Shown here piece after piece: positions 1 to 6,969 of a DNA stretch of 64,000 nt. Positions within the stretch are counted from its first letter, which is position 1. The number at the start of each line of letters is the position of its first letter. The notes beneath the pieces are model-generated. The model made no database searches. It saw only the letters and a program-made list of their open reading frames with translations, and was not told where the DNA came from. Position numbers and translations under genes: made by a program. Source of the DNA: Bacteroidota bacterium (GTDB taxonomy: Bacteria > Bacteroidota > Bacteroidia > Bacteroidales > NBLH01); contig JANYKN010000146.1 in assembly GCA_025361565.1 (NCBI GenBank), positions 1 to 64,000 of the forward strand, read 5' to 3'.

Positions 1-1
1 G

Positions 2-697
2 TTTGCACTCAGGCAAGAACTGGAAAGCTATGAGGTGTTACAGGAAAAAATAGCCCAGTGCAATGTTGAAATAGAAAAAAAGCTGGATGAAATCATCGAA
101 AGCGATGAAAATAAAAAGCAACACCTCATTGACAGCAAACCCCATAAACGGGTAAACAAAAACACCCCAAAGAACATCGACCTAAACCTGAAATCGTATC
201 AAATGTTTGAAGGCAATGATATTCTATCGATTGAAGGAGTGAGTTATTCGACAGTTTTAGCCATAATGAGCGAAATAGGGATAGAAGGGATCCGGAAATT
301 TCCCACGGCCAAACATTTTGCCAGTTGGTTGCGATTAGCCCCGAACAACAAAATAAGCGGTGGCAAAATTTTATCAAGCAAAGTACCCAAAGGGAGTAAC
401 CGGTTGAAGATAGCATTACGGAATGCTGCAAATGCCATAGGATTATTGAAAGAATCCACTCCATTACGAGATTTTTTTCATCGTATAAATTTTCGTAAAG
501 GCCGCACATCAGCTATAAGTGCAACAGCACGAAAACTGGCAGTAATTATTTGGAATATGATAGTAAAAAATGTTCCGTATCATAATCCCGAAGGATATTT
601 ATTTCTTGACCAAAAAAGAAAATTGGGAATGGTTAAAAGAATACAAAAACAAATTGATAAATTTGGAATATCAAAAGAAGATGTTGTATTTTCTTAA
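2..697 (+). CDS. IS110-family transposase, 3' part (gene cut by the window edge)
   Basis: The frame is open from base 2, so the gene begins outside the window; the GTG at 35 is not a real start. The visible 231 residues hold a charged coiled segment and then the C-terminal IS110/IS116 transposase domain. That domain carries the helix-hairpin-helix-like LSIEGVSYSTVLAIMSEIG, then FASWLRLAPNN, the SGGK motif that holds the family's catalytic serine, and the RLKIALRNAANA helix. The N-terminal DEDD nuclease half is missing only because of the window boundary. IS110 elements insert under the guidance of a bridge (seeker) RNA encoded in one flank; that RNA cannot be located here. The gene ends 52 bp before the ankyrin gene, so the element's right end must lie in about 698-735, next to a GTTAG core that looks like an attC end. 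Confidence 0.88.
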   Translation, partial: FALRQELESYEVLQEKIAQCNVEIEKKLDEIIESDENKKQHLIDSKPHKRVNKNTPKNIDLNLKSYQMFEGNDILSIEGVSYSTVLAIMSEIGIEGIRKFPTAKHFASWLRLAPNNKISGGKILSSKVPKGSNRLKIALRNAANAIGLLKESTPLRDFFHRINFRKGRTSAISATARKLAVIIWNMIVKNVPYHNPEGYLFLDQKRKLGMVKRIQKQIDKFGISKEDVVFS

Positions 698-748
698 TCG
701 CTGTAAATCAGTGATTAATATTTTACGTTAGTTAGGATAATCAGTAAG
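698..748 (+). other. IS right end and possible attC/cassette junction
   Basis: This short gap must contain the right end of the IS110-type element. At 727-737 it holds two overlapping cores, GTTAGTT and GTTAGGA, close to the attC R' core GTTRRRY. The ankyrin start codon follows 12-18 bases later, the spacing usual for the first gene of an integron cassette. The matching left half of such a site would lie beyond the IS, outside the window. The call is an inference from the better-preserved palindromes at 2564-4666 and 4784-4916. Confidence 0.4.
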
Positions 749-2563
749 ATGAAATTTAGAATTTTAGTATCGACAATAATTTTTACACTTTTATTTTCAT
801 GCAAATCAAATAACGACAAATTGATTGAAGCATGTAAAGAAAAAGATTTATTAAAAGTTAAAGAGTTATTGTCGTTGGATAGTATAGATGTAAATTATCA
901 TAACGACAAAAATGAAACAGCCTTATTTATTGCTTACCAAAACAATGATACTTCACTGATTTCGCTTTTGTTAAAGAATAAAGCTTCCGATAAACGTGTT
1001 TTCTTCAATTTTTATACAGAGATTTTAAAAGCTGTTGATGAAAATAATATAAACATTATTCACAAGTACGTAAAATTTGGAATTAATTTTAATTTTCAAC
1101 AAAACAATAAGCACCCATTGATTGAAGCTATTTCAAATGCAAAGGATTCGATAGCAAAACTAATCATTGATTCAGGTATTTCATTGAATCGGGATACGAT
1201 AAATAAAGAATTCCCATTGTTGGTTGCAGTTGAAAAAGAACGAATTAATATAATCAACTTTTTATTAAATAAACAACCCGATTTGATAAATTGGACAAAC
1301 AGAGATGGTGAAAATTTATTGTTTTCTACAAACAACTTGCAAATTGTAAAAATACTTGTAGAGCATGGTATTGATATAAATAAAAAAAATAATGATGAGG
1401 CTTATCCCTTGTTTTGGAAACAGTTTGAGCAGAATAGTGGGAGTGTTCGAGGAAAAGAAAACGATGAACTGAAAGAAATTGAAAGATATCTTATCGAAAA
1501 AGGAGCTAAAGATTTTAATAAATTAATTACACCTTTGTTAAATGCGTGCCAAAATGGAAATTTAGATTCAGTAAAATTATTACATAAAAAAGGAATTGAT
1601 TTGAATGCTAAATTTATTTGGTATGTTGAGGTGAATGAATGTCCAGGGGGATTATTGTTTACTACTCCAATAGTGAAAGCTGTCAATTCAAAAAAATTGG
1701 AATTAGTAAAATATTTAGTTGAAAGCGGTGTTCAATTTAATTTTTCAGAAAGCGGAGAACAACCTTTGTATAACGCAGTTATTTCGCAAGATTATAAAAT
1801 TGCTGATTATTTGATTTCAAGAGGAGCTATTTCAGATACAATATTTGCACTGGATTATTATGATCATTACAATTATGCAGTTGAAAAACAAGATACTGTA
1901 ATGCTTCAATATATTTTAAAAAATGGTTTTAAGTACCATTATGTATATGATGGAGTTCCACCTCTTGCTAAAGCTGCGAAAAATGGAAACCTCAAATTTG
2001 TAAAACTGATTGTTGAAAAGGTAATTGTTGATTTGGATAACAATGAGTATAGTAAAGCACTTTGTTATGCTACAAACATAGAAATTGCAAAATATTTAAT
2101 CAAGAAAGGTGGGTCGCTTGACTTTATTTTCCAATATGAAGGCGAAGGAGGTTGCAGAGAATTCATAACACCTTTAAACAATGCAGTTTCAACAAAAGAC
2201 ATTTTGTTTGTTGAATTTCTATTAAAAAATGGTGCCAATATTAATTTTCTCGATTCTTACAATCAGCAAATGGAAACTTCATGTTTTGTTCAAAATCCAC
2301 TTTGTATAGCAGTTCAAAATAATGATATTGAAATGGTTAAATTTTTGGTAAAAAAAGGCGTAACAATTAATTTTTATATTAAATATATTTGGGGTGAATT
2401 TAATAATCCATTATTTGGCGCAATTAAAAATAATAACATAGAAATGGTTAAGTTTTTAATTGAACATAAATCTAAACTAAAATTTGATACTATTTCAGCA
2501 ATAAATGTAGCTATGGAAACTAAAAATCAGGGACTGATTAATTATATAAAAAGTAGGAAATAA
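749..2563 (+). CDS. Ankyrin-repeat lipoprotein
   Basis: The 604-residue protein starts with a short signal peptide ending in the lipobox LLFSC (Cys18), so it should be lipid-anchored on the periplasmic side of the inner or outer membrane. The rest is a long solenoid of ankyrin repeats of about 33 residues. Recurring pieces are LLKVKELL, NNDTSLISLLLKN, AKLIIDSGI, LVKYLVESGV, IADYLISRGA, VEFLLKNGA and MVKFLVKKG. There is no catalytic domain, so it probably binds a protein partner. The gene is unusually AT-rich, has no obvious ribosome site, and starts just after a GTTAG core. Its stop codon TAA overlaps the left end of a palindromic attC-like site now split by a group II intron. That is how a gene in an integron cassette is laid out. 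Function unknown. Confidence 0.9.
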   Translation: MKFRILVSTIIFTLLFSCKSNNDKLIEACKEKDLLKVKELLSLDSIDVNYHNDKNETALFIAYQNNDTSLISLLLKNKASDKRVFFNFYTEILKAVDENNINIIHKYVKFGINFNFQQNNKHPLIEAISNAKDSIAKLIIDSGISLNRDTINKEFPLLVAVEKERINIINFLLNKQPDLINWTNRDGENLLFSTNNLQIVKILVEHGIDINKKNNDEAYPLFWKQFEQNSGSVRGKENDELKEIERYLIEKGAKDFNKLITPLLNACQNGNLDSVKLLHKKGIDLNAKFIWYVEVNECPGGLLFTTPIVKAVNSKKLELVKYLVESGVQFNFSESGEQPLYNAVISQDYKIADYLISRGAISDTIFALDYYDHYNYAVEKQDTVMLQYILKNGFKYHYVYDGVPPLAKAAKNGNLKFVKLIVEKVIVDLDNNEYSKALCYATNIEIAKYLIKKGGSLDFIFQYEGEGGCREFITPLNNAVSTKDILFVEFLLKNGANINFLDSYNQQMETSCFVQNPLCIAVQNNDIEMVKFLVKKGVTINFYIKYIWGEFNNPLFGAIKNNNIEMVKFLIEHKSKLKFDTISAINVAMETKNQGLINYIKSRK

Positions 2564-2568
2564 CCATA

Positions 2569-2651
2569 ATCGAGTAGATGGCCAGTGAGCTAAAAGCCCA
2601 CTGATGCACCTCTCACACCACCGTACGTACGGGTCTCGTATACGGCGGTTC
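2569..2651 (-). ncRNA. Group II intron domains V and VI
   Basis: Domain V spans about 2651 down to 2609: a GAACCGCCGTA arm pairs with TACGGTGGT, and the end is the familiar GGTGTGAGAGG. Domain VI follows, with stem CAGTGGGC / GCTCACTG, and the intron finishes with CTACTCGAT. Domain V starts two bases after the maturase stop codon, the compact layout usual for class C introns. Confidence 0.75.
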
Positions 2652-2652
2652 A

Positions 2653-3963
2653 TTAAACAATGGGGAACAGCGGCGAACTTTTGTATTTGGGCGCAACTTT
2701 AAGATACCATGTAAGCAGTGCTTCATAACCACGTTTAACCAATTTGTCGATTGTAACCGTGGTTCCTAAAATAGGACTTTGGGCTATTGCCCAGCCTCCC
2801 ATTCTGCTTCTGCTCCAAGGGTAAGCATTTTCAGGATTAACTCCAAGCCTTAAAAGGTTTTTCCGCTTACGCTCAGGCTTTTTCCAATGGTGCCAGATAC
2901 AATACCGCAACCGGTTGCGAAGCCAGCCGTCCAGCTCAGAGAGTTTTTCGTACATGCTTGCCAAACGGAAATTGTTAATCCAACCCCGTTGCACCTCTTT
3001 TAGTTTTTGTACTCGTTCATCGAAGCTCATGGGCGTAGTTTTACGGGTTATTTCCTTAAGCCTGGCTTTAAATGATATCCATCGTTTTTCTTCAACCACC
3101 AGTTGGTATTTGCCTTTATCACCTTTACGGTATGTTGGTACAAATCCATATCCTAGTATTTTGAAGTCCAAAGGTTTGCGGATACCGCTCTTTTCCCTGT
3201 TGATTGGCAGCTTTAACTTGTCCCTAAGGAAAAGATAAATGCTGTTGCCAACCATTTTGGCTTCCTGTTTGGTTTTGAAGTAGATACTAAAATCATCGGC
3301 ATAGCGTACAAACCGGAGTTGTCTTTTTTCCAATTCCATATCCAATTCATGCAGCATGATGTTGGACAGTAGTGGACTTATAGGACTTCCTTGTGGTACG
3401 CCTTTTCTGCGTTTGATTAGTTTACCGTTCTGCAAAATTGGTACTCTTAGCCAACGCCTGATTAACTGGAGTGTCCCTGGACATTTTATCTTCCGGTACA
3501 GCAATTGCATTAACAAACAGTGGTCTACTTCATCGAAAAATCCTTTCAGGTCGATATCAGCGATGTGTTGGTACCCTGAATTGATATAGTTCAATGATTT
3601 TGTAACTGCTTGTAATGTATTGCGTTCCGGACGGAAGCCAAAGCTGTACTCCGAAAACATATACTCGAATTGAGGCATTATTATGCGGCTAACGGCTTGT
3701 TGCAGCATCCGGTCGATGACAGTTGGTATGCCTAATAAGCGCATTTTGCCATTGCTTTTAGGAATCTCCTTTCCCCTGATGGGCTTTGGGATGTAGTTTC
3801 CATTGCGTATCAGTTCTGATAGTACGTTCCGGTTTTCATCCAGATAGTCTTTCAGTTCTTTTACACTCATTTTGTCTACACCTGCCGCACCATCGTTGCG
3901 AATTACTTCGTAACATGCTTGGGTTAGGTTTCCTGCATTTAATACTTTGTCAATTGTCTGCAT
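2653..3963 (-). CDS. Group II intron reverse transcriptase/maturase
   Basis: This 436-residue intron-encoded protein splices its own intron and copies it into DNA. It has the reverse-transcriptase blocks in order: the GKMRLLGIPTVIDRMLQQAV block, SFGFRP, the first catalytic Asp in IADIDLKGFFDEVD, GVPQGSPISPLLSNI, and the YADD catalytic pair in FVRYADDFSIY. After a thumb/maturase X domain (about 290-360) comes a C-terminal basic region, RKRKNLLRLG...WSRSRMGGW. There is no HNH endonuclease domain, which fits class C introns that insert into single-stranded or hairpin DNA. The gene lies fully inside the intron. The frame is intact, so the element may still be active. Confidence 0.93.
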   Translation of the reverse strand: MQTIDKVLNAGNLTQACYEVIRNDGAAGVDKMSVKELKDYLDENRNVLSELIRNGNYIPKPIRGKEIPKSNGKMRLLGIPTVIDRMLQQAVSRIIMPQFEYMFSEYSFGFRPERNTLQAVTKSLNYINSGYQHIADIDLKGFFDEVDHCLLMQLLYRKIKCPGTLQLIRRWLRVPILQNGKLIKRRKGVPQGSPISPLLSNIMLHELDMELEKRQLRFVRYADDFSIYFKTKQEAKMVGNSIYLFLRDKLKLPINREKSGIRKPLDFKILGYGFVPTYRKGDKGKYQLVVEEKRWISFKARLKEITRKTTPMSFDERVQKLKEVQRGWINNFRLASMYEKLSELDGWLRNRLRYCIWHHWKKPERKRKNLLRLGVNPENAYPWSRSRMGGWAIAQSPILGTTVTIDKLVKRGYEALLTWYLKVAPKYKSSPLFPIV

Positions 3964-4783
3964 ACATTCTTATTCACTTCTTTCTCCCTGTTGCATTTGC
4001 TGGTGGCTGGCTATGCCTCCATTCAGCATGGCAACTGTTCAATGTTCGTCCTTCACTGATTACTTCTGGTGTTGGGTAGCTTGGCCAGTCAGTTCGCTCG
4101 ACTTCCACAGACATACCTTTCATTTCATACCGTAGTTCACCTACTATGACCTCTGCTGACTTCTTGATATTTTGGAAAGGCTCTGCTGAGCCTGCCGAAG
4201 CACCGAACCTAATTCAAGACCTCCCCCGGTAAGAGCTTTTTCCTTCCTCCAATGCCTGCGGTATCTACTATAAAACGCTTTTGGTGTTCTTTGGACGTTA
4301 CAATGATGTGCTTGCTTATCCACGTTTAATAGCCTCATATACCGTTTCTGTTCGTCAGTACCGGATTTTGCCGTTTGACTTCCTTCAGTGAATGGGTCAC
4401 CCCAAAACCACCTTGTCACTTGCTAATGCTTCGGGCACGACCCCGCGCATAAGGGATTTGCACCCTCTGGAAAAATATACACGCACACTTGCTTGGCCTT
4501 GTAATTAAATTTGCATATTTGTATTTAAAAACGAGCTTACACAAGTGTGCGCTCCTGCTCATGCAGGGCGCACACATTGTGTAAACCGGCCATTTGCCCT
4601 TGAATCGGTTTCGCGTCGGGAAACCGCTGTACAAGGGCAAACGGCGGCTACACATGTTCGTTAGTAAGCATTGAGAATTTTACAAAATAGGCGATTTCTA
4701 TATAACGGTCGGAAATATTTTATTGAACCAAAAATGCCGACTCTAGCGATAAAACCATGTTATTAAAAATAAAGAATAAATGC

Positions 4784-4916
4784 ACACAACATGCTATAAA
4801 TGCCATTTGGGGGCATTACGTGCCTGAAGTGCAGTACAATTCATGAAGTTTATTACTAATTCGAAGCCACGGAACGGCTAAACCGCCAAACAGGCACTTA
4901 TAGCTATCCGTTATGT
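4784..4916 (+). repeat. attC-like site B
   Basis: A 133-bp imperfect palindrome. The outer left arm ACAACATGCTATAAATGCC (4786-4804) pairs with GGCACTTATAGCTATCCGTTAT (4893-4914), and GTGCCTG (4820-4826) pairs with CAGGCAC (4891-4897). The outer ends, ACACAAC and GTTATGT, correspond to R'' and R' cores of an attC. Between site A (ending 4666) and this site are 117 bases without an open frame, so an empty or decayed cassette would lie there. The arms differ from sites A and C, as is normal between attC sites of different cassettes. Confidence 0.5.
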
Positions 4917-5077: not shown

Positions 5078-5689
5078 ATGGAAACAAAACAACCAATTGC
5101 CGAATCTTTTGATGAAAATCAATCACTTCAGGTGATTAAAGAAATGATTCAGGTTTCGCAAAAGAAACTAAAAAACGATGGTGTTCTATTTATTTTATGG
5201 GGATGGGTTATTTTTTATAATTACATTTCGTGGTATGCGCTAAATGATATGGTAACAACCTACCAAATTTATAAGGGATTTGAATATTTTGCAAAAGGCT
5301 TGGTAGTATTCGCTTTTGCTTTTTCTATCTATTATATTTTTAGAAAAAGCACAAAAGTGACAACATACATTGGAATATCTCTACGATATGTTTGGATTTC
5401 ATTAATAATATGTCTCTCATTAGTCAATATGATTATATTTAATGCGATACATGAATTTAATGCTACATTACAACATCCGATTTTAATGGTATTTATGGCC
5501 TTTGCAGTTGTGGTTACAGGAGGAATTTTGCGTATCAAATTAATAATATTGGGTGGTGTTGTTTTTGGCCTTTTGGCTTATATATGTACATATCTTAGCA
5601 TAGAGAATCAAATGCTAATTGAAGCGGTTGCCTGGTTGATTGCGTTTATTATTCCTGGTCATTATTTGTATGCAACACGTAAAACCTAG
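5078..5689 (+). CDS. Polytopic membrane protein of unknown function
   Basis: A 203-residue protein with a soluble N-terminus of about 45 residues and then five to six hydrophobic segments (near 46-65, 78-98, 105-128, 140-158, 158-180, 180-198). It ends with the basic tail ATRKT. No known catalytic motif is visible. It is the first gene of a tight three-gene unit: the stop codon is 5 bases before a winged-helix regulator, which itself ends 4 bases before a lipoprotein gene. A small membrane protein plus a PadR/MarR-like regulator is a common pairing in Bacteroidota, where the membrane protein is often the regulated partner. It has its own promoter at 5009-5040. The unit lies between two attC-like sites. 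Confidence 0.82.
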   Translation: METKQPIAESFDENQSLQVIKEMIQVSQKKLKNDGVLFILWGWVIFYNYISWYALNDMVTTYQIYKGFEYFAKGLVVFAFAFSIYYIFRKSTKVTTYIGISLRYVWISLIICLSLVNMIIFNAIHEFNATLQHPILMVFMAFAVVVTGGILRIKLIILGGVVFGLLAYICTYLSIENQMLIEAVAWLIAFIIPGHYLYATRKT

Positions 5690-5694
5690 GTACT

Positions 5695-5997
5695 ATGTTC
5701 AATGAATTAGACCCAATATTGCATTCACAAGTTAGGCTTGCAATCATGTCGTTACTGATGAATGTAAAATCTGCCGAATTCAGTTTTTTGCTCGAAAATA
5801 TCAATACAACAAAAGGAAACCTGAGTTTTCAGCTAACAAAGTTGAAAGAAGCAGAATATATTGAAATCAAAAAGTCTTTTAAAGGAAACTATCCATTAAC
5901 AACTTGCGAGGTTACTCAAAAAGGGATTGATGCTTATGAAATTTATGTCAAATCTATTGATGAATATTTTAAAGAATTTAAAAACAATAAAAAATAA
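5695..5997 (+). CDS. Winged-helix transcriptional regulator (HTH_34/MarR-like)
   Basis: A 100-residue, single-domain DNA-binding protein. The layout is that of the small winged-helix family common in Bacteroidota: LDPILHSQVRLAIMSLLM as first helix, EFSFLLENINTTKGNLSFQLTKL as helix-turn-helix, and a wing with YIEIKKSFKGNYPLTTCEVTQKG. A C-terminal dimer helix follows. There is no ligand domain. It sits 5 bases after the membrane protein gene and 4 bases before the lipoprotein gene, so the three are one operon. The perfect palindrome over the operon promoter (5023-5040) is the obvious candidate binding site, making this a probable autoregulator. Confidence 0.85.
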   Translation: MFNELDPILHSQVRLAIMSLLMNVKSAEFSFLLENINTTKGNLSFQLTKLKEAEYIEIKKSFKGNYPLTTCEVTQKGIDAYEIYVKSIDEYFKEFKNNKK

Positions 5998-6001
5998 AAT
6001 T

Positions 6002-6625
6002 ATGAAAACAATAAACAATAAAACGATTAAAGGAATATTTTTAAGGTCCATCACATTTCTATTTTTCCTATTTTCATGTGATTCACAGACAAAAACAAAT
6101 GGGCAAAAAGTAGTATTTGGGATACATGTAGTTGCAAACGGTAGTGAAATACCTAATGCGATAATTGATACCCTAAAATCCAGAGGTGTTCAAATTGAAA
6201 GCAATCAACAACAACCTATTCTTGGTTATATTTCAAAAGCTGATTCTATGGTTCTTCAAATTGATTTATCTGAACCGAACATTAAACTTGTCAAAACAGT
6301 TTATCTGGCCGATAAAGAACAAAAATATTATGGCCTGGTTGGGATTAGACCAATTACTGTTATTAATATCACATCTTTAAAAGAGACCAAAGCTAATGGA
6401 ACTAATGTAGAGATTTATTTCAATTCGAAGGGTGCGAAAGATTGGGCGGATTTTACAAAACAAAACATTGGAAAATCGATAGCATTCATCATTGACAATC
6501 AAGTTTACGCAATTCCTTTAATAAATGGTGAGATTAAACATGGGATTGCAATGATTACCGGACTGAATAATGAAAGCATTGCAAAAAACATTTCGGAGTC
6601 CTTGAATTTTAGCATACCTAAATGA
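6002..6625 (+). CDS. Lipoprotein with SecD/SecDF P1-head-like domain
   Basis: A protein of 207 residues when started at ATG 6002; the longer upstream frame overlaps the regulator gene and lacks a signal peptide at its start. A signal peptide with lipobox LFSC precedes Cys23. The C-terminal half (about 120-205) follows the pattern of the SecDF periplasmic P1 head: VEIYFNSKGAKDWADFT, then IGKSIAFIIDNQVYAIPLI, I..G..MITG, and a helix ending AKNISESLN. In SecD that domain binds preproteins during export, but here there are no membrane helices and no second domain, so it is a stand-alone periplasmic lipoprotein. Function unknown. Third gene of the 5078-6625 unit. Confidence 0.78.
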   Translation: MKTINNKTIKGIFLRSITFLFFLFSCDSQTKTNGQKVVFGIHVVANGSEIPNAIIDTLKSRGVQIESNQQQPILGYISKADSMVLQIDLSEPNIKLVKTVYLADKEQKYYGLVGIRPITVINITSLKETKANGTNVEIYFNSKGAKDWADFTKQNIGKSIAFIIDNQVYAIPLINGEIKHGIAMITGLNNESIAKNISESLNFSIPK

Positions 6626-6969
6626 TATTTTTATAATAAAGATAAAAAATACTGAGTATCAACAATGCCAGTACATAACAGTGTGTAGCCGCCCATTTGC
6701 CCTTTCATCGGTTTCGTGTGCGTGGAACAGATGAAGGGGATAACGGTGTCTATATATGTGTATCGGTCTGTGCAAAAACTCCCCAAAATTGTTGATAATT
6801 ACAATAGACCAGAAGAAGTATTAACCAGTTCATCTTGTTAACTTTATAGTAACAAAAGAACCAGCAATTAAAGGAGCTATTTTATTGTTTGCAAATCATA
6901 TCATAAGTGCATATCGTATCGAACTTAAGATTTTTGTAGCTAATTTCGAACCCAAATTATTCTAAACAT
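6626..6969. other. 344-bp gap holding attC-like site C
   Basis: No open frame of note. The first 140 bases contain the palindromic site at 6673-6768. The rest is AT-rich DNA before the aminotransferase gene, with a weak TAATTTCG at 6941-6948 but no good upstream TTG, so no promoter is called. Confidence 0.6.
6673..6768 (+). repeat. attC-like site C, right arm decayed
   Basis: The left arm ACATAACAGTGTGTAGCCGC and the CATTTGCCCTT and CATCGGTTTCG blocks match site A closely. The right arm at 6744-6768 lines up with site A's right arm without gaps, but many positions differ (CGGTGTCTATATATGT against CGGCGGCTACACATGT). Its R' core reads ATCGGTC instead of GTTAGTA. The site follows the three-gene unit as an attC should, but it probably no longer recombines. 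Confidence 0.5.

Follow-up and report, generated by a model that had tools for sequence, protein, structure and literature searches.

Results

Layout of the locus

The DNA analysed here (hereafter the window) is a 64,000-nucleotide stretch of a Bacteroidota genome available as a draft of 199 contigs. It opens with the right part of an IS110 element, followed by a gene for an ankyrin-repeat lipoprotein, an attC site split by a class C group II intron on the opposite strand, a second cassette with three genes, and a degenerate attC-like site beyond which chromosomal genes begin (Table 1). The end of the IS110 element was fixed by a second copy, 91% identical, at C189:1-738. The motif GTTAG at 726 was considered as the remainder of an attC cut by the element, in the manner of IS1111-attC elements, and this was rejected because the motif lies inside the element, whose second copy runs to 738. 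The first-pass annotation had taken the ankyrin gene for an integron cassette. An attC directly follows the gene, in agreement with that reading, but only the 3′ end of the cassette is complete, its start being lost beyond the IS110 element and the contig edge; the cassette start TTATGGTTA was found on none of the contigs that share the IS110 edge.

Table 1. Positions of the features in the window and on other contigs of the same genome.
Feature	Position	Strand	Details
IS110 element, right part	1..738	+	Upstream of the ankyrin gene; contig breaks inside the element
Ankyrin-repeat lipoprotein gene	749..2563	+	604 aa; cassette gene; split attC directly after it
R″ part of split attC	2562..2568	+	AACCATA; intron 3′ exon
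Class C group II intron	2569..4573	-	2005 nt, GTGCG...CGAT; Rfam matches and intron-free own-genome copies
Group II domains 5-6	2569..2650	-	RF00029, Rfam, 40.5 bits; ends exactly at 2569
Reverse transcriptase/maturase	2653..3963	-	Intron-encoded; 436 aa, intact, YADD present, RVT_1 and GIIM domains
Group II D1-D4 core	4234..4406	-	RF02001, Rfam, 120.2 bits, E 4e-24
Candidate EBS1	4306..4309	-	ACAT, could pair with IBS1 (ATGT) in the 5′ exon; from 53 aligned intron 5′ regions
Intron insertion point			ACAATGT/TATGG of the attC bottom strand; GT/TRRRY position in the R″ box
Remainder of split attC	4574..4664	+	ACATTGTGTAAACC...CGTTAG; intron 5′ exon; own-genome copies, DNA fold
Second cassette	5078..6625	+	Membrane protein 5078-5689, winged-helix regulator 5695-5997, SecDF-P1-head-like lipoprotein 6002-6625
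Degenerate terminal attC-like site	6674..6759	+	Chromosomal genes from 6970 on
Candidate integrase, own genome	C53:1583-3379	-	With attI-like junction and attC on the same contig
Defence cargo, own genome	L017 3995-7366, L022 2816-6049, L025 537-3698, L018 2285-4372, L019 949-3561		Contigs C26, C49, C86, C39, C40

A class C intron interrupts an attC site

The ribozyme core, domain 5, GTGYG...AY ends and a class C reverse transcriptase/maturase assign the intron to class C, as had been claimed from the letters alone, and the tree described below agrees. The maturase scored 365 bits against the group II reverse transcriptase/maturase model TIGR04416 (cut-off 300), and its nearest solved structures, 7uim (E. 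rectale) and 6ar1 (GsI-IIC), are both of class C. On the bottom strand the intron ends read ACAATGT/GTGCGCCC...TACTCGAT/TATGG, with slashes at the intron boundaries, and the 3′ end is identical in Bacteroidota relatives. Removal of the intron joins CCATA to ACATTG; the flanks then read CCATAACATTGTGTAAACC... and run on to GTTAG at 4664, and the expected intron-free junction of the ankyrin cassette contains CATAACATTG. A candidate EBS1 is listed in Table 1 as a proposal only, because its covariation with IBS1 was not significant in the aligned 5′ regions.

When the genome was searched at the DNA level with positions 2400-4800, 38 further places were returned, nearly all of which matched only the ~90 nucleotides from 4574 onward; a weak copy at 6678 was among them. 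In local alignments with an intron-deleted query, at least 36 other copies in the same genome ran through the junction intron-free (...YATAAC/ATT..TGTA...). These 36 uninterrupted copies are empty sites and therefore fix the intron ends as ACAATGT/TATGG, which bears out both ends first proposed, GTGCG at 4573 and the last base at 2569, the latter also being where the domain 5-6 match stops. The insertion lies in the bottom strand of attC with the junction ATGT/TATG, antisense to the cassettes, just as predicted.

The palindrome that had been rebuilt by joining the flanks, with its right arm ending in GTTAG, is an imperfect hairpin with R and L boxes and recurs elsewhere in the genome. Folded as DNA, the bottom strand of the intron-deleted attC reached -26.4 kcal/mol (z = -4.8), and none of 200 shuffles was as good. 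Compensatory changes were present at five attC base pairs among 29 own-genome copies. A second palindrome, at 6673, had been described as matching the rebuilt left arm; it is a copy of the site, but a degenerate one with 77% identity.

The genome contains extensive cassette arrays

The cassette array suspected from the window is real and far larger than first seen. A profile search of the fetched contigs of this genome, window included, detected at least 56 attC sites in three or more subtypes. All own-genome statistics rest on this search because a general hairpin scanner misses most of the bulged attC sites. Short contigs were filled by arrays of mostly co-oriented genes with one site after each. 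In these arrays a cassette begins with nine nucleotides that are reverse-complementary to the left end of its own attC: in most consecutive pairs, the nine bases after G complement the nine ending in AA at the left AAC box of the next site, and the complementarity ends exactly at nucleotide 10. Across 28 pairs, 118 matches were counted at the seven scored positions, compared with 59.3 ± 6.8 after shuffling, and 0 of 10,000 shuffles did as well. This complementarity is the relation between TTRRRY and RYYYAA that is characteristic of integron cassettes. The window's own cassettes fail this test or cannot take it, one having lost its start and the terminal site being degenerate.

The attC type of this genome had a single match elsewhere among 60 relatives (in G016, 83% over 81 nucleotides), and attC types are therefore largely genome-specific. 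The cassette cargo was rich in anti-phage defence: three genes are of the type IIG restriction-modification kind, one is DndD/PbeC-like and one is a type III restriction gene.

Candidate integrases without the I2/patch insert

The first-pass annotation saw no integrase. This holds for the window; elsewhere in the genome, a non-canonical recombinase lies on contig C53 together with an attI-like junction and an attC. The junction, AAACGT^TTGG, departs by one base from the expected G^TT. C53 and the array contig C140 have 141 identical nucleotides at both contig edges, where they run into one and the same cassette.

The integrase expected of an integron, an IntI with the additional domain known as the patch, was not found: no canonical IntI passed the TIGR02249 or NF011946 cut-off in the own-genome draft, and an IntI over the cut-off was present in none of 24 intron-bearing genomes, one of them complete (Maribacter halichondriae). 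Tyrosine recombinases that matched the IntI model were detected in 23 of the 24, the match mostly being split where the IntI insert belongs. When aligned with IntI1, IntI4, XerD and XerA, they showed the catalytic residues and a tail of the IntI type, (S)PLD, and the insert was absent; in the tree they fell outside the IntI clade (support 100/99). The L197 recombinase was excluded because it was in the wrong frame. The candidates scored 216-236 bits against NF040815 (cut-off 220), a model named 'site-specific tyrosine recombinase/integron integrase'. They resemble XerA/XerC-type recombinases in scoring near or over this model and differ from them in heading attC arrays and in having the (S)PLD tail in common with IntI. 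Also noted, at C133:207-434 (L032), was the broken C-terminal part of a patchless integrase, with SPLD as its last residues.

Several of the recombinase genes have an attC array with exact 9/9 junctions as a neighbour, mostly at the 3′ side; in 54 kb of control sequence there were no junctions. In 6 of 20 regions, C53 included, the first cassette start, defined as an exact 9-mer complementary to the first attC, was located 28-163 nucleotides past the stop codon of the recombinase gene, compared with 8 of 380 cross-locus pairings. An interval of the same size 5′ of the recombinase gene gave matches in 2 of the 20, which are due to chance or unexplained. These positions suggest that the (S)PLD-tailed recombinases without the I2/patch insert move the cassettes in these genomes, with an attI-like site just 3′ of the gene. 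To our knowledge, the insert is considered a requirement for the recombination of folded attC and has not been found outside IntI; a patchless integrase is the part of this reading that would be most surprising. We lean towards a phylum-wide form of integron in Bacteroidota that combines an integrase lacking the insert, an attI 3′ of its gene, and a separate lineage of class C introns specialised for its attC sites. It would share with chromosomal integrons and CALIN the cassette arrays, attC hairpins, TTRRRY end complementarity and a cargo of defence and unknown genes, and would differ from them in the lack of a canonical IntI, in the candidate integrase without I2/patch and in the position of the array at its 3′ end.

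Alternatively, the arrays could be mobilised by a canonical IntI missing from the drafts, with the patchless recombinases nearby as passengers. It is common for arrays to lack intI, the own genome is in 199 pieces, and a genome of the same taxonomic order, G013, has a canonical IntI of 367 bits (C50:52308-53159, L070), the C-terminus of which is apparently diverged or cut. However, we rejected the G013 gene as the missing integrase because no cassettes were seen up to the contig end. In addition, IntI was lacking from all 24 intron-bearing genomes, the complete one among them, and recombinases with a cassette junction just past the stop recur in several genera. We consider a missing IntI possible, although rather unlikely, and retain the patchless recombinases as the candidate integrases.

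The maturase belongs to a separate Bacteroidota lineage

Introns of the IIC-attC type and their insertion into attC are already known (PMC7923331), and the intron had been likened to them. Its target site, junction and orientation agree with this, but its maturase was placed in a separate Bacteroidota lineage of class C. The IIC-attC references (L151, L152, L153 and L169), which come from or lie beside integrons in plasmids, grouped together as one clade (100/99), which nested with class C maturases of the terminator type (93/93). The maturase of the window intron fell in a group made up of Bacteroidota only (97/99) and was about 37-41% identical to those of the plasmid integron introns. Judged by sequence, then, the intron appears to behave like an IIC-attC intron while being placed outside that clade. 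Forcing the core Bacteroidota group to join IIC-attC was rejected in a test without the three deep Bacteroidota members; forcing all Bacteroidota sequences to join was not rejected (p-AU = 0.185).

These results bear on the alternative that horizontal transfer brought this intron into Bacteroidota from the known IIC-attC clade. In its favour, PMC7923331 gives the same target box, orientation and TGT/T junction for IIC-attC introns, the 3′ junction (GAT/TRRRY) is shared with L151-L153 from class 1 integrons, and the second test is compatible with attC targeting having arisen once for IIC-attC and all of the Bacteroidota lineage. Such a transfer is nevertheless unlikely, given the two well-separated groups and the low identity between their maturases. 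We favour two origins of attC targeting, as the tree would suggest. Thus, the intron resembles IIC-attC introns of class 1 integrons in its class C maturase, attC bottom strand, R″ box, TGT/T junction and antisense orientation; it differs from them in maturase clade, in its Bacteroidota hosts with another attC type, and in that the first base of IBS1 is free in the Bacteroidota lineage, (A/C/G/T)TGT.

Relatives of the intron insert preferentially into attC-shaped sites

A scan of 84,980 species genomes yielded 80 relatives of the intron, nearly all in Bacteroidota. Sites were counted for relatives with the 5′ exon present, those whose intron 5′ end could not be located being omitted, and were called attC-shaped when a 14-nucleotide stem inside an AAC...TGT frame had at least 10 pairs. 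By this definition, 34 of 52 distinct insertion sites were attC-shaped, compared with 71 of 1910 random positions (3.7%) and 46 of 662 other TGTT[AG] positions, and the AAC box lay at -119 to -126 nucleotides in most relatives. The cassette-end complementarity could also be followed through the intron: eight bases (GT plus the 3′ exon) had their exact reverse complement at the start of a hairpin further downstream in 11 of the 38 loci with enough downstream DNA, compared with 5 of 1793 cross-locus pairings (0.3%). Multi-cassette arrays with an antisense intron were observed in Salegentibacter agarivorans, Flavobacterium fragile and Cryomorpha ignava, and the intron was opposite to the cassette ORFs in L112, L105, L150 and L128. 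Insertion into attC is a habit shared by the related introns, whose lineage spans the phylum. Some relatives (L088, L093 and L122) are found at ordinary hairpins resembling terminators, and attC is therefore not an absolute preference.

Class C introns seek hairpins, and the intron in the window could be an ordinary terminator-seeking one that met an attC hairpin by accident. The few relatives at terminators point in this direction, as does a second class C intron in the own genome, of which the 5′ end lies at a contig edge (C188:23160-23295, L068) behind a short non-attC hairpin. An accident is nonetheless unlikely, because two thirds of the distinct sites used by the lineage have the attC shape, in most of them with a constant distance to the AAC box, and because the complementarity is kept exactly through the intron at the 11 loci. 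Targeting of attC remains the preferred reading. With terminator class C introns (GsI-IIC and E. rectale 7uim) the lineage shares the class C reverse transcriptase, the ribozyme core and the use of a hairpin with a short IBS, and it differs in having attC as the target hairpin in most members.

That the palindromes are some other intergenic repeat of Bacteroidota, as their length (about 126 nucleotides in many relatives), a sequence unlike proteobacterial attC, R boxes that fit GTTRRRY only loosely (GTTAKRC) and the lack of a canonical IntI might suggest, is scarcely credible in view of the co-oriented genes with one site each and of end complementarity that stops where cassette excision and integration at G^TT would have it stop, and we know of no other process that gives such arrays with such ends.

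Discussion

This end of the window is very probably the tail of a Bacteroidota chromosomal integron, in which a mobile class C intron has reverse-spliced into the folded bottom strand of an attC; patchless recombinases may move the cassettes. On the best reading of the data, the integrase of these Bacteroidota integrons lacks the patch, and the integrons are parasitised by class C introns of their own that target attC. The intron and the cassettes are well supported, and the role of the integrase is suggested by the position of the gene.

Mechanistically, the attC bottom strand would fold when single-stranded, and the intron would read its hairpin as other class C introns read that of a terminator. 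IBS1 (xTGT) and IBS3 (T) would pair with the intron, possibly with the ACAT at 4306-4309 as EBS1, and the intron would reverse-splice between GT and TRRRY of the R″ box. The entry route was presumably retrohoming into single-stranded attC. The split attC is probably no longer recombined normally: the 2 kb between R″ and the rest should block attC folding, and therefore the ankyrin cassette is probably locked in place.

Integrons have been reported in Bacteroidota before (PMC8618304, PMC2426708), and IntegronFinder 2.0 found one complete Bacteroidetes integron, in Salinibacter ruber M1 (PMC9024848). Incomplete conservation of the insert has also been noted in a subgroup of integron-like recombinases (PMC8138268). 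A literature search of freely accessible papers, preprints aside, found no paper on class C introns in Bacteroidota attC sites or on cassette arrays headed by patchless recombinases. Arrays of this kind would imply that many Bacteroidota cassettes escape surveys that look for integrons with IntI models; the intron lineage is a natural marker for the attC sites of such arrays. The lineage also bears on how class C introns choose their hairpins. The array-borne recombinases without the insert, if active, would be intermediates or an independent solution, and this is directly testable.

A further trace of such introns was observed in the own genome. A 176-kb chromosomal contig contains a remnant of an intron 3′ end, comprising domains 5-6, at C109:160624-160708 (L036 5625-5709), with the 3′ exon TAGATGC.
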